In this document: positions 1,455 to 36,598 of the stretch, in pieces | How the letters are laid out: each line of letters opens with the position of its first letter | Numbering within the stretch: the stretch's first letter is position 1 | Assembly (NCBI GenBank): GCA_031255645.1 | Contig: JAIRSC010000181.1 | Location: 1 to 41,032, forward strand | DNA length: 41,032 nt | From: Treponema sp. | GTDB lineage: Bacteria; Spirochaetota; Spirochaetia; Treponematales; Breznakiellaceae | Direction of reading: 5' to 3' | Translations under genes and position numbers: made by a program | Notes under the pieces: model-generated | Databases searched by the model: none | Told to the model about the DNA's origin: nothing | Seen by the model: the letters and a program-made list of their open reading frames with translations, nothing else

Positions 1455-3388
1455 AACAGTTCCTTGTTCCGGTAACTCCGCTCAAGAGCTTCCAGCGCGC
1501 CCGTCATGTCCCGCTCAAATTCGGAAAAGGCCCTGCTGTCATCGTTCTTTATCTCGCTTTTGAGCCGCGAAAGCCGTTCCCGCAGCGGCGCGGCCGCCTG
1601 CCCCGCTCCCGTATCCGCCGGGCTTTTTTCCGCGCCCTTCGCCGCGTCTTCCATTAACGCGCCTTCTGTTGGCGCGCCGTCCGTTGACACACCTTCTGTC
1701 GACGCCGGCGAAAAGTCCTCCGCCGTTTCTTCCCCGCCGGCCCGGGCCGTAAGCGCCATTATCCGGTAGAGCGGCGCGCCCAGTTTAATGCAGAGCCGCG
1801 CGCGCTCGTAAAAGTCCATCATGATTTCAAGAAGCCGTATCTGTTTGGAGGGAACGCAGTACATGTCTATTTCGTCAAAACTGTTCTGCTGAAGAAAACC
1901 GTTTTTGATTATTTCCGAAACAAGAAGGACAAGCCGCTCTCCGTCCGGCAGGGCGTCCGGCCCGATAAGCCTTACGATTTCGGCAAGGCGCTGTTCTTTC
2001 TTCAAAAGTTCAAGGGCTTTCTGCCGCACCACCGCCCAGGCGGGGCTGAGTTTTTCCCACCAGGCTTTTACTTCCCCGGCGTATTCCGAATAACTGTCGA
2101 TCCAGCTTATCGCCGGATAGTGCCTGGCGTTGGCAAGATCCCTGTCCAGCGCCCAGAAACAGCGGATAAAACGCTTGGTATGCTGGGTAACCGGCTCCGA
2201 AAAATCGCCGCCGGGCGGCGACACGGCCCCGATAATCGAAACGGAACCTTCCCTGCCGTTCAGCGTCGTTACCCTGCCGGCCCGCTCGTAGAATTCGGCA
2301 AGCCGCGTGGGAAGATACGCGGGAAAGCCTTCTTCGGCGGGCATTTCTTCCATGCGCCCGGAAAGTTCCCGCAGGGCTTCCGCCCAGCGGCTTGTCGAAT
2401 CCGCCATAATGGCTACGTGGAAACCCATGTCCCGGTAAAATTCGGCCAGGGTTACGCCGGTGTAAATGGAAATTTCCCGCGCGGCGACAGGCATGTTGGA
2501 AGTATTGGCGATGAGTATCGTTCGTTCCATAAGCGAACGGCCCGAACGCGGATCGGTAAGATGGGGAAATTCGCTGAGCACGTCCGTCATCTCGTTGCCC
2601 CGTTCTCCGCAGCCTATGTAAACGATTACATCGGCGTCGCACCATTTGGCGATGGCGTGCTGGGTCATGGTTTTGCCTGTCCCGAAGCCGCCCGGTATCG
2701 CGGCGGTTCCGCCCCTGGAAACGGGAAAGAAAACGTCGATAACCCGCTGGCCCGTTACAAGAGGCCTGTCCGGCGAAAGACGGCCGGCGCAGGGCCTGGG
2801 CGTCCGAACCGGCCACCACTGGGCCAGGGCTATTTTTTCTCCCGCGTCCGTTTCGGCGATGGTTTGCGAACAGCGGTACTCTCCCGCCGGGGCAAGCTTC
2901 CCGATCCGCCTTCCCTTAAGCATCGGCGGAACCATGATAGAACAGGTAACGCTTTCGGTTTCCTTTACCGTTCCCAGAACAAGTCCGGCCGGCGCTTCCG
3001 CCCCGTCCCCGGCAAGTTCCGGGTTTGGAACAAAGGCCCATTTTTTTTCGGGATCAAGGCCGTCCGTCCGTACGCCGGGAGTCATAAAGGCCCCGGTTTT
3101 TTCATACAGGATTTTCAGCGGCCGCTGAATACCGTCGTAAATCGTACCGATAAGGCCGGGGCCCAAAAAAACCGACAGGGGCCTTTCGGCGGATACGGCG
3201 GGAGCGCCGATCTCAAGCCCGGTATTGTCCTCGTATACCTGGATAACCGCCTCGTCCCCTTCCAGGCGCACGATTTCGCCAAGGATGCGTTTTTCGCCGA
3301 CCTCGACAACGTCGAAAAGGCCGGCCTTTCCCAGACCTTCCGCCCTTATAATCGGGCCGGAAATACGCTTAACCCTTCCCTCAGGCAT
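1451..3388 (-). CDS. atpA: V-type ATP synthase/ATPase catalytic subunit A
   Basis: 645 aa. Catalytic V1 subunit that hydrolyses or makes ATP. A P-loop GGFGTGKT lies at about residues 233-240 and the GERGNEM block at 261-267; the non-homologous region typical of A subunits lies between about 110 and 200. The start chosen is the ATG before [12 protein letters not shown], the usual A-subunit N-terminus; the frame is open further upstream, but that stretch belongs to the subunit E gene, whose end this gene overlaps by 8 bases. The protein is about 50 residues longer than the usual roughly 590 aa because of an acidic Thr/Glu/Gly/Ala-rich insert near residues 549-598, before the last helices. Confidence 0.97.
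1659..1703 (-). repeat. three degenerate 15-bp tandem units inside atpA
   Basis: Three adjacent 15-bp units (plus strand: gcgccttctgttggc, gcgccgtccgttgac, acaccttctgtcgac) encode pentapeptide-like repeats [15 protein letters not shown] in the C-terminal linker of subunit A. The 15-bp period preserves the reading frame, which suggests expansion by slippage. It accounts for part of the extra length of this subunit. Confidence 0.75.
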
Positions 3389-4022
3389 CGCCGGCCTCCC
3401 CGCCGCGCGGTTCTTCGGCGTCGTTCCCCAGCAGGGCTTCGGCAAGCTCGGCGCGGCTGTCCGAAAGCAGGGCGGCCGCGGCGGCGTCCACGGAAGAAGT
3501 AATCCGCAGATCGGGAAAATCCAGCGCCGCCGCCGGCATCGCGCCGGCCACGGTATACAGCGGATCCTCCTTAAGCGAAACCCGGCGGGGATCCAGGAAT
3601 TTTTCGACAAGCGCCCCGGCTTCGTCCGGCGACAGGCCCCGGTAACGGAAGACGCAGGGACCTTCGGCTTTACAGGCGGCGAGCCGGACGGAAAGTTCCC
3701 GTTCCAGAACGGAAAGGATTTTTCCCCGATCCAGGGAACGGAGAAAATCGTCCATCGCGCCGGAAAGAAAACGTTCGATTTTTTCGGAACGGATTCTCCG
3801 CTCGTCCAGAGGCAGCCGGGCCATAATTTCCCGCCGTTCCCGTTCTTCCCTCAAACGGTAAGCGTCCCCGGCTTCGGCCAGGGCTTTGTCGAGTTTCCCG
3901 TCCCAGGCCGCCTGTGAAGCCGCCTCGGTTTCGCCGGCCGTTTTGAGTATTTTATGGGCTTTTTTCCGGGCGTCTTCAAGGATCTCCCTGTCAAGCGCCT
4001 CTGTCGATTGTAACTCTTCCAT
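3381..4022 (-). CDS. atpE: V-type ATPase subunit E (peripheral stalk)
   Basis: 213 aa, close to the usual length of subunit E. The N-terminal 80 residues are charged and helical ([20 protein letters not shown], then [22 protein letters not shown]), as in the stator coiled coil paired with subunit G/H. The C-terminal part has the compact alpha/beta pattern of E ([19 protein letters not shown], then [30 protein letters not shown]). Sequence similarity by eye is modest. Position between F and A in the operon makes the assignment strong. The SD upstream of the ATG is weak, so expression may rely on coupling with the upstream gene. Confidence 0.88.
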
Positions 4023-9106: not shown

Positions 9107-9127
9107 GCCCTTACCAAAGCCGCGGCC
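9107..9127. repeat. direct repeat copy 1 (partner at 9970-9990)
   Basis: The 21-base sequence gcccttaccaaagccgcggcc matches 9970-9990 at 20 of 21 positions, in the same orientation. This copy covers the stop codon and last codons (R-L-W) of the nuclease-like gene. The two copies bracket that gene together with its promoter and both upstream palindromes. Confidence 0.7.
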
Positions 9128-9767
9128 TAAACCCTTCGGGCGGGTCGATTTTTACCGTATCCCCGGATTGTTCAATCAGATAAAAGCCCTGTTTGAGAAC
9201 ATAATTTCTCAATTCCGGCGGCACAATCGCGCCGGCCACCGCGCCGAGTAATTTTCGCGTATCCCCGCGTTCGTCAAGATAAGCGCGAAGAACCTTCATC
9301 CGTCCGGCATGGTCGTCCACGTGCTCTTTACGCAGCTTGGATTTTACTTCCACCGCCATCGCGAATTCGCCGTTTTCAAGCCATACGTCAACTTCCGCGA
9401 GAAAGGTTCCGTCGCGGCCGAAAAATTCTACGTCGGGACCAGCCCTGGTAAAAGTGTAATGCAGGGCCCGGAATTTTTCGGCGATGTTGGGAGCTACAAG
9501 ATGTTCGGCCAGTTCCCCGAAACGGTTGCCAAGCTCTCCCATTTTTTTGTTCACTTCGGCCACTTTTTTATCCAGCTCCTTTTTGCTTTCCCGAAGCTGG
9601 CGGTCCGTCTCTTTGATCTGGTGATTCGTTTCCTGAATTTTCCTGTCCGTTTCCTGAAATTTTTTATCTGTTTCCTGAAACTTTTTGTCCGTTTCCATCA
9701 TCGCGGCCCAAACGTCCTCGAACGTAAGGCCCCGCTGTGGTTCACGTATTTGCGCCATGTCTCCCAT
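9111..9767 (-). CDS. coiled-coil protein with PD-(D/E)XK nuclease-like domain (paralogue 1)
   Basis: 218 aa from the ATG at 9767, which has GGAG seven bases upstream; the open frame continues upstream through the promoter and is not used. Residues 25-66 are six heptads, five of them ETDKKFQ-like, predicted to form a coiled coil. Residues 120-142 (TFLAEVDVWLENGEFAMAVE and on) carry the D-x12-E-V-K spacing of a PD-(D/E)XK fold: Asp127, Glu140, Lys142. The layout resembles the poorly characterised DUF3782-like family found in cyanobacteria, archaea and spirochaetes. The C-terminus KQGFYLIEQSGDTVKI is shared with the second copy at 35878-36474. Function is unknown; a DNA-associated role is an inference. 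No membrane or signal segment is seen. Confidence 0.85.
   Translation of the reverse strand: MGDMAQIREPQRGLTFEDVWAAMMETDKKFQETDKKFQETDRKIQETNHQIKETDRQLRESKKELDKKVAEVNKKMGELGNRFGELAEHLVAPNIAEKFRALHYTFTRAGPDVEFFGRDGTFLAEVDVWLENGEFAMAVEVKSKLRKEHVDDHAGRMKVLRAYLDERGDTRKLLGAVAGAIVPPELRNYVLKQGFYLIEQSGDTVKIDPPEGFRPRLW
9591..9695 (-). repeat. 21-bp tandem repeats encoding heptads in paralogue 1
   Basis: Five consecutive 21-base units encode ETDKKFQ, ETDKKFQ, ETDRKIQ, ETNHQIK and ETDRQLR (residues 25-59). The first two encode identical heptads. The period equals one coiled-coil heptad, so gain or loss of units keeps both frame and heptad register. Confidence 0.85.
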
Positions 9768-9841: not shown

Positions 9842-9882
9842 GGGAAAGGCCGGAATCCGTTTACAACATTCCGGCCTTTCCC
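9842..9882. terminator. perfect 15-bp inverted repeat, terminator-like hairpin
   Basis: gggaaaggccggaat (9842-9856) and its exact complement (9868-9882) enclose an 11-base loop. It follows the nifS-nifU genes and precedes the promoter of the nuclease-like gene. No T-run follows on either strand, so it is not a classical intrinsic terminator. It might be a factor-dependent terminator, an RNA-stabilising end or a protein site. Confidence 0.6.
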
Positions 9883-35748: not shown

Positions 35749-35877
35749 TTTTTACCTTCGCGGAAAATTCCGGTACTTCCGAATACTATATCCGTAAACC
35801 GTCATGTATCACAGTCCGGACAGAAACCGCTTTTCCCGGAGCCGGAAATATGGCATATTTAAAACAAGGAGTCGAAA

Positions 35878-36474
35878 ATGGGGACAACGCAGGCGGCGCC
35901 GGACTGGAAAGATACCGCGGACAGCATTTGGGCGATACTTAGGGAAAATGCCCAGGGTCTCAAGGAACTGAAAGAAAGCCAGAAGGCGACCGACGAACAG
36001 ATGAAGGCGACCGACAAACAGATGAAGGCGACCGACAAGCGGCTCGGGGAACTTACCAACCGTTTTGGCGACATGGTTGAATATATGGTCATGCCGAACC
36101 TTGTGGCGAAATTTGAGGAACTGCGGTTTACCTTTACGAAGGCAAACCGTACGGAAATCAGGGACAGGGAACACGCGATTTTCACGGAAGTTGACGCCCT
36201 TTTGGAAAACGGCGACAAGGTAATGGCGGTCGAAATAAAGACCAAGCCCAGCATTGACGATATAAACGACCATATTGAGCGTATGGTAAAACTGCGGAAA
36301 TACGCTGATTTACACAATGACAGGCGGATATATCTGGGCGCTGTCGCGGGGGTGGTTTTCAGCGACAGCGAAAAAACCTATGCCCTGAAAAAAGGCTTTT
36401 ATGTGATTGAGCCTTCCGGCGACACCTTCAATATTATCGAACCGAAAGGCGATTATCACCCCCATGAATGGTGA
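35878..36474 (+). CDS. coiled-coil protein with PD-(D/E)XK nuclease-like domain (paralogue 2)
   Basis: 198 aa, paralogue of the protein at 9111-9767. It shares the LG-E-L-x-NRFG-x-x-x-E block after the coiled coil, the FTEVDALLENGDKVMAVEIK core (Asp106, Glu119, Lys121 of a PD-(D/E)XK motif) and the C-terminus KKGFYVIEPSGDTFNI. Its coiled coil is shorter: about three ATDKQMK-type heptads (residues 37-57) against six in paralogue 1. AAGGAG lies six bases before the ATG. It stands alone between the divergent ATL gene and purB. Function is unknown; an intact active-site set suggests it may be a nuclease. Confidence 0.85.
   Translation: MGTTQAAPDWKDTADSIWAILRENAQGLKELKESQKATDEQMKATDKQMKATDKRLGELTNRFGDMVEYMVMPNLVAKFEELRFTFTKANRTEIRDREHAIFTEVDALLENGDKVMAVEIKTKPSIDDINDHIERMVKLRKYADLHNDRRIYLGAVAGVVFSDSEKTYALKKGFYVIEPSGDTFNIIEPKGDYHPHEW
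35986..36048 (+). repeat. 21-bp tandem repeats encoding heptads in paralogue 2
   Basis: Units encoding ATDEQMK, ATDKQMK and ATDKRLG. The first two differ at a single codon base pair group (gaa to aaa), and the word gcgaccgac begins each unit. Period and position match the repeats in paralogue 1, but the heptad sequence is different, so expansion seems to have happened independently in each gene. Confidence 0.85.
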
Positions 36475-36598
36475 CCGCATAAAGCCGCGGTCTGCCGGGT
36501 GTCCCGCCTCATGAAAAGGCGGCGGGCTCATTTCTACTGAACGGCGACAGCGGCGCGGGAGCACTGGACAAAACCCGCGCGTTGTGTCAAACTCTCGT

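Follow-up and report, generated by a model that had tools for sequence, protein, structure and literature searches.

The window, a 41,032-nucleotide stretch of Treponema sp. DNA, carries two genes, here called W1 and W2, that belong to one family of predicted nucleases. Each protein of this family starts with a short leader that is conserved, followed by a coiled-coil rod whose length varies and by a predicted nuclease core in which the catalytic signature is intact. The genes lie scattered, one at a time, with a fast turnover of their positions, and purifying selection acts on the core. The fastest-evolving part is the rod, which gains and loses units of 21 and 33 bp in such a way that the phase of the coiled coil is maintained; the repeats of the rod can serve as a joint for the exchange of leader and core. 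Quite possibly, though we stop short of calling it probable, W1 and W2 belong to a family of single-gene PD-(D/E)XK nucleases that has expanded in this lineage and has a DUF3782/DUF1626-like architecture; its members would act as oligomerising orphan nucleases with a lifestyle of the Rpn type.

Two paralogous genes in the window

The relevant features are as follows.

9111-9767, minus strand: W1 (member 1), DUF3782-type coiled-coil PD-(D/E)XK protein, 218 aa
9699-9767, minus strand: W1 N-terminal leader, residues 1-23, with a conserved ...GLTFEDVWAA motif immediately ahead of the rod
9543-9698, minus strand: W1 rod, residues 24-75, one predicted helix that runs on into the core
9627-9696, minus strand: W1 21-bp tandem array, 3.3 copies, 83% matches, score 98 (Tandem Repeats Finder)
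9114-9542, minus strand: W1 PD-(D/E)XK core (predicted), residues 76-218, with E88, D127, E140-x-K142 and H153-xx-R156
9842-9882, minus strand: perfect 15-bp inverted repeat (9842-9856 / 9868-9882) upstream of W1
35878-36474, plus strand: W2 (member 2), second coiled-coil PD-(D/E)XK paralogue, 198 aa
35982-36038, plus strand: W2 21-bp tandem array, 2.7 copies, 97% matches, score 107 (Tandem Repeats Finder)
36037-36471, plus strand: W2 PD-(D/E)XK core (predicted), with E68, D106, E119-x-K121 and H132-xx-R135
35751-36562, plus strand: segment holding W2, replaced by 46 bp in the same-genus genome G002 (locus L125), between an MGMT-like ORF and purB

The initial annotation had described two paralogous proteins with a common nuclease-like core and a matching C-terminus, and open reading frames, arrays and cores are indeed present at these positions. 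The two proteins are 39% identical over 205 aa and their C-termini match. The proposed D-x12-E-x-K motif corresponds to D127/E140/K142 in W1 and D106/E119/K121 in W2. The coil of W1 reads ETDKKFQ-ETDKKFQ-ETDRKIQ-ETNHQIK-ETDRQLR followed by one degenerate heptad, with F, I or L at position 'a' and T at position 'd' as read off the sequence, and the coil of W2 reads ATDEQMK-ATDKQMK-ATDKR. A count of about six heptads for W1 and about three for W2 is fair at the protein level, but only about three units in each gene are near-identical in DNA. An independent expansion of the two coils had also been claimed, and is borne out: compared with W2, its closest relative in a same-genus genome lacks exactly 14 residues (two heptads) of the rod, and the units of the W2 array are 97% alike compared with 79% identity of the core DNA to this relative.

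A leader of the V/I-W-A type recurs in most complete family members. The inverted repeat upstream of W1 has a diverged version upstream of the family member on contig C131 and is not a genome-wide repeat; it is possibly a regulatory element, or the terminator of the nifU-like gene.

Fold and catalytic signature of the core

An AlphaFold2 model of W1, built with nine relatives, shows one long helix (residues 16-101) and then the nuclease core, with a pLDDT of about 90. The predicted core of W1 has the topology helix-beta-beta-beta-helix-beta, and that of W2 is the same at lower confidence. Upon comparison with the PDB, the best match of the W1 core was NucS (Z 10.4, rmsd 2.5, 106 residues); further matches were Can2 (Z 10.1), EndoMS (9.8), Card1 (8.7) and XisH (8.1). 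By sequence search, no solved structure was found with a meaningful E-value.

Among 106 aligned cores, E140 is conserved in 106, D127 in 105 and K142 in 104, and E88, H153 and R156 in 102, 105 and 104, respectively. The residues are placed as the PD-(D/E)XK fold requires, E88 in helix one, D127 in strand 2, E140 and K142 in strand 3, and H153 and R156 in the helix after strand 3. Since D127, E140, K142 and E88 are kept in 102-106 of the 106 cores, the D-x12-E-x-K motif is not a chance occurrence. With this core fold and a D...E-x-K signature, the family has the defining features of the PD-(D/E)XK superfamily. The suggestion of potential nucleases thus stands, the predicted fold being restriction-endonuclease-like; the opposite outcome, a prediction without such a fold, did not occur.

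Many restriction-endonuclease-like domains are inactive. The family might accordingly consist of coil-driven scaffolds or regulators whose nuclease domain binds nucleic acid without cutting it, and two observations on related proteins would fit: DUF1626 domains often lack the motif III lysine (PMC1913061), and coil-only relatives occur elsewhere (PMC4786415). The catalytic D, E and K are, however, retained in 104-106 of 106 cores here, and we regard a non-cutting role as very improbable.

The structural likeness to NucS/EndoMS and to Can2/Card1 (Z 9-10) concerns the shared fold only, at 11-16% identity, and these proteins differ in their partner domains. NucS has a beta-rich N-terminal domain. 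A beta dimerisation domain of this type is absent from the predicted structures of W1 and W2, in which the N-terminal part is a helical rod.

Relation to DUF3782 and DUF1626

The initial annotation had seen here the best candidate for an undescribed system. This is too strong, as a coiled coil joined to a PD-(D/E)XK domain has been described both for DUF1626 and for DUF3782. DUF1626/PDDEXK_10 (PF07788), reported in 2007, has an N-terminal coiled coil and a restriction-endonuclease-like domain, is tied by profile to DUF91 (NucS) and Hjc, and frequently has Thr in place of the motif III lysine (PMC1913061). In this last point the family analysed here differs, as it keeps the Lys in 104 of 106 cores. 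The curated cut-off of PF07788 was passed in none of the eight family genomes searched, and weak matches were obtained for five of 24 cores (best E 0.005).

DUF3782 (PF12644) has an N-terminal heptad coiled coil ahead of a PD-(D/E)XK endonuclease domain (Hartmann et al. 2016, PMC4786415). Pfam puts those coils together as DUF3782, and archaeal members have nonad beta-layers which are missing from the bacterial, nuclease-bearing members. Our family has a similar order of parts, a coiled coil (predicted helix 16-101) and then a predicted PD-(D/E)XK fold. In a genome search with PF12644 (cut-off 24.4 bits), the C131 copy scored 29.1, W1 24.8 (with neighbours in frame), the copy on contig C95 24.6 and W2 24.5, and with hmmscan the window proteins fell slightly under the cut-off, at 23.7 and 22.9. 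By its profile scores the family belongs to DUF3782, with the window copies as borderline cases.

Proteins of the DUF3782/DUF1626 type have been on record since 2007; no functional study of DUF3782 or PF07788/PF12644 was found in the literature searched, where papers are few. Lineage expansion, variation of rod length and exchange of parts are not described for DUF3782 in the part of PMC4786415 covered here. For Treponema-type spirochaetes, expansion, phase-locked rod variation, gene-sized dispersal and part exchange were not found described in the literature searched, and the spread of the family there looks new.

Size and distribution of the family

The home genome (a 2.44-Mb assembly of 239 contigs, 83% complete) contains four family members, not two: W1 and W2 on the window contig and one each on C95 and C131. 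At least one copy is carried by 11 of 12 relatives from the same family of organisms, whereas all seven genomes sampled from elsewhere in the order lack one. The richest genome, G002, has 22 matching stretches at 16 places, corresponding to about 14 genes, as a few stretches are halves of a single gene divided between contigs; G009 has 13 matching stretches. A scan of 393 genomes of the phylum, in which up to 10 candidates were scored for each genome and copy numbers are therefore lower bounds, revealed a match in 36, namely most sampled same-family genomes and scattered, more distant ones. The number of copies per genome ranges from one to about 15, scattered singly. Two of the genomes with members are complete single contigs (G227, 4,059,867 bases; G322, 3,855,671 bases).

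These data bear on the alternative that the proteins are DNA-repair or recombination nucleases serving the cell, of the NucS/EndoMS or Holliday-junction-like type, of which copies have been duplicated. NucS/EndoMS as the best structural match speaks for this reading, as does the profile link of DUF1626 to DUF91 and Hjc. The family, however, has no match in the sampled other families of the same order, its copy number varies from one to about 15 inside one family, and individual sites are occupied or empty among genomes of the same genus. Such a patchy distribution, variable copy number and presence or absence at given sites would not be expected of a housekeeping enzyme, and we consider the repair reading quite unlikely.

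Of 101 members, 56 share a genome with their nearest relative, compared with a mean of 5.4 and a maximum of 19 when labels are shuffled. At locus L169 (G312, contig C3) two members lie in direct tandem (2142-2774 and 2811-3425); their cores are 93% identical and their rods differ by seven residues, and the pair is a recent tandem duplication.

Genomic neighbours and searches for phage, plasmid and defence origin

All-against-all comparison of flanking ORFs from about 115 loci revealed no partner gene or operon conserved beyond a few loci. Recurrent neighbours were an HU-like DNA-binding protein (PF14848/DUF4469), LpoB/CsgG-like proteins and common enzymes or transporters. The members look like orphans. 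The window neighbours of W1 and W2 are housekeeping genes and do not form a defence island.

A phage or plasmid origin was rejected because the family is almost absent from such records: 50,697 phage records gave no match, viral contigs gave none with W2 patterns, and plasmid records contained one distant DUF3782 gene (25% identity) on a Sulfuricystis plasmid. Assignment to a known defence family was likewise rejected, as matches to PADLOC and PHROGs were weak. Those to PADLOC were at the superfamily level (PDC-S01 at 8e-6 in four of 24 cores, DruK and Csx1), and many of the matches of full-length proteins to defence and phage profiles were coiled-coil noise. PDC-S01 and DruK have weak sequence similarity to some family cores, but PDC-S01 is an ATPase fused to a PD-(D/E)XK domain (PMC12988326), and this ATPase is absent here.

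Rod length follows the coiled coil

Of 107 complete members, 74 contain tandem arrays, which in 70 cases lie within the rod. The commonest periods are 21 bp (28 arrays), 33 bp (13) and 54 bp (eight), the last being the sum of the other two. Between close copies the rod changes in length in frame, which agrees with the variable spacer proposed for W1 and W2: the pairs L058/L059, L090/L091 and L101/L103 have cores which are 95, 95 and 96% identical and rods which differ by 21, 33 and 49 residues, respectively. L059 and L061, with near-identical cores, have rods that differ by 24 residues. Repeat number thus varies between paralogues and between species.

The distance from the leader Trp to the core (76 members) clusters at a period of 3.53 residues with R 0.52, against a 99% limit of 0.35 for the null across all periods tested, although the formal significance is overstated because the members are related. 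In 25 closest pairs with unequal rods, each member being used once, the signal persisted, the V-test at 3.5 giving z 3.7. At a period of seven residues R was only 0.22. Rod length is thus locked to about 3.5 residues, the half-heptad of a coiled coil, and not to the 21-bp unit, so that half-heptad or hendecad steps are tolerated in any number, provided that the phase of the coil between leader and core is kept. A rod length set by the DNA unit alone was ruled out, as the period of 3.5 is far stronger than that of 7 and 33-bp units are common too. The idea that repeat slippage lengthens or shortens the rod without breaking the frame consequently holds with regard to the frame, but the permitted lengths follow the turn of the coil, with only a weak period of seven. 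As rod lengths track the helical turn and not the 21-bp unit, selection at the protein level shapes the outcome of slippage. Heptads of the ETDKKFQ type also occur in distant relatives from other classes (L211, L212), which points to an old heptad with a younger copy number.

Comparison with Rpn proteins and proposed mode of action

The Rpn proteins (recombination-promoting nucleases, YhgA-like, PF04754) are multicopy PD-(D/E)XK proteins with single-gene gain and loss in the absence of terminal repeats (PMC10327210, PMC5350276). They contain a helix with a variable repeat number and are toxic and anti-phage (PMC10327210); the repeat consists of four residues and belongs to the C-terminal part, which is also produced alone as antitoxin (PMC10327210, PMC5350276). 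The family described here likewise combines a predicted PD-(D/E)XK domain, several copies, single-gene gain and loss and a helix with variable repeats. It differs in that its repeats have seven or 11 residues and are located in the N-terminal rod, and in that no internal start is supported at the rod/core boundary, where six candidates were seen compared with 8.7 expected. Internal starts with a ribosome-site-like sequence are in excess about 40 codons before the stop (alignment positions about 100-120; 19 compared with 6.2 expected), which may be a matter of codon context. The Rpn profiles PF04754 and PF12784 are absent from the Pfam matches of both window proteins and of 24 cores, and the resemblance is a likeness and not membership.

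We propose the following mode of action. The rod would form a parallel homo-oligomer which gathers the nuclease cores at one end and presents the leader at the opposite end. Like Rpn, the proteins would be orphan nucleases that are normally held in check, and a phage or another invading element would trigger DNA cutting. The length of the rod might tune the oligomer state or the reach.

The family offers more than 100 natural variants of known relationship, in which the rod is longer or shorter by a defined number of helix turns and the catalytic core is constant. As isolate genomes appear to carry members (the two complete single-contig genomes), their function is testable. If the parallel to Rpn is true, oligomerising helices with variable repeat length would have served repeatedly as a means of varying orphan defence nucleases.

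Dispersal, turnover and exchange of parts

Copies from the same genome with 94-97% core identity share DNA only from about 15-100 bp before the start to about 3-36 bp after the stop. The common upstream stretch comprises the promoter and the ribosome site, and the flanks beyond are unrelated. The order ferritin - MGMT-like - purB around W2 is intact in G002, where W2 is missing (812 bp here, 46 bp there). No inverted repeat surrounds W2, and the intergenic flanks at the empty site are too diverged to fix the exact border. W1 is absent from the secG-ptsN site in G001, G002 and five more same-family genomes (seven of seven tested), and the C131 copy is absent next to the same U32 peptidase gene in G001. 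Altogether, all testable relatives lack three of the four copies of the home genome at the corresponding neighbour gene, one of these places being a clean empty site; the absences are compatible with gain here or loss there, which cannot be told apart. The nifU neighbour of W1 was set aside as an empty site because gene order differs between genera.

For 58 close pairs, mostly from within one genome, the median dN/dS of the core is 0.13 and no pair exceeds 1. The cores are thus under strong purifying selection, which rules out diversifying selection on the core and indicates that scattered copies, even when young, act like functional genes. There are decayed copies as well, with internal stops in G322 and others, and with a core deleted in frame in L069.

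The main rival to orphan nucleases of the Rpn type is a self-spreading gene. The nuclease would cut the chromosome, repair templated by its own gene would copy the unit from promoter to stop into new intergenic places, and the family would persist because intact copies spread. Such a mechanism would account for homology that ends just beyond the gene, for lineage-specific positions, for copies that cluster by genome and for the decayed copies (stops, the core deletion of L069 and an in-frame insertion in L093), and purifying selection on catalysis fits selfish spread too. Nevertheless, terminal repeats and a target duplication were not seen at the single clean empty site, and, as the flanks differ, there is no site for homing. 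An autonomous transposase with such a fold was not known to the authors of the Rpn study (PMC10327210), and ectopic gene conversion together with gene gain and loss would yield the same picture. We therefore judge a self-spreading gene to be unlikely.

An exchange of parts is seen in L166 (G347). Its leader and rod are 86% identical to those of L184 over 194 bp and its core is 85% identical to that of L186 over 412 bp, and there is no full-length alignment to the core of L184. By these alignments at least one member, L166, combines the leader and rod of one subfamily with the core of another. Leader types recur alongside several core types; the leader is short and L166 is the sole strong case of exchange. 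The orphan nucleases could even constitute a self-diversifying repertoire, a possibility we regard as rather doubtful. The rod arrays would then be recombination joints that alter the spacer in steps of the coiled-coil phase and swap the leader (for sensing or partner binding) and the core between scattered copies. Each genome would have its own changing set of nucleases, and the family, as a counterpart of Rpn with an N-terminal coiled coil, would have arrived at the same lifestyle by convergence.

Contig ends fall within the gene more often than expected at random (21 of 58 compared with 8.0 in the first set, 27 of 125 compared with 13.5 overall); shared repeats, or mixed strains with differing repeat numbers, would both produce such an excess.

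Some individual loci have further features. In L081 (G005, contig C50, 3062-3865, minus strand) leader, rod and the start of the core continue in frame into an unrelated C-terminal sequence, possibly the result of a broken or fused gene. In L093 (G009, contig C219) the conserved C-terminal part of the core is split, about 60-130 bases ahead of the stop, by an insert that keeps the frame, measures about 60 bp and contains the palindrome GTGCGGCGTCTTGCGCCGCAC; it resembles a small, mobile palindromic element. Short repeats, about 60-100 bp long and in inverted orientation (GGTGTTGCACCACTTTGAAACA...), lie on both sides of L101 and L103 in G010, namely downstream of L101 (21-127, 360-531 and 625-780) and upstream and downstream of L103. 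In the subfamily of G009 formed by L087 and L094-L097, a conserved promoter-like stretch with a AGTATCTTT...AAAGATACT inverted repeat is located upstream of the start codon of every copy.
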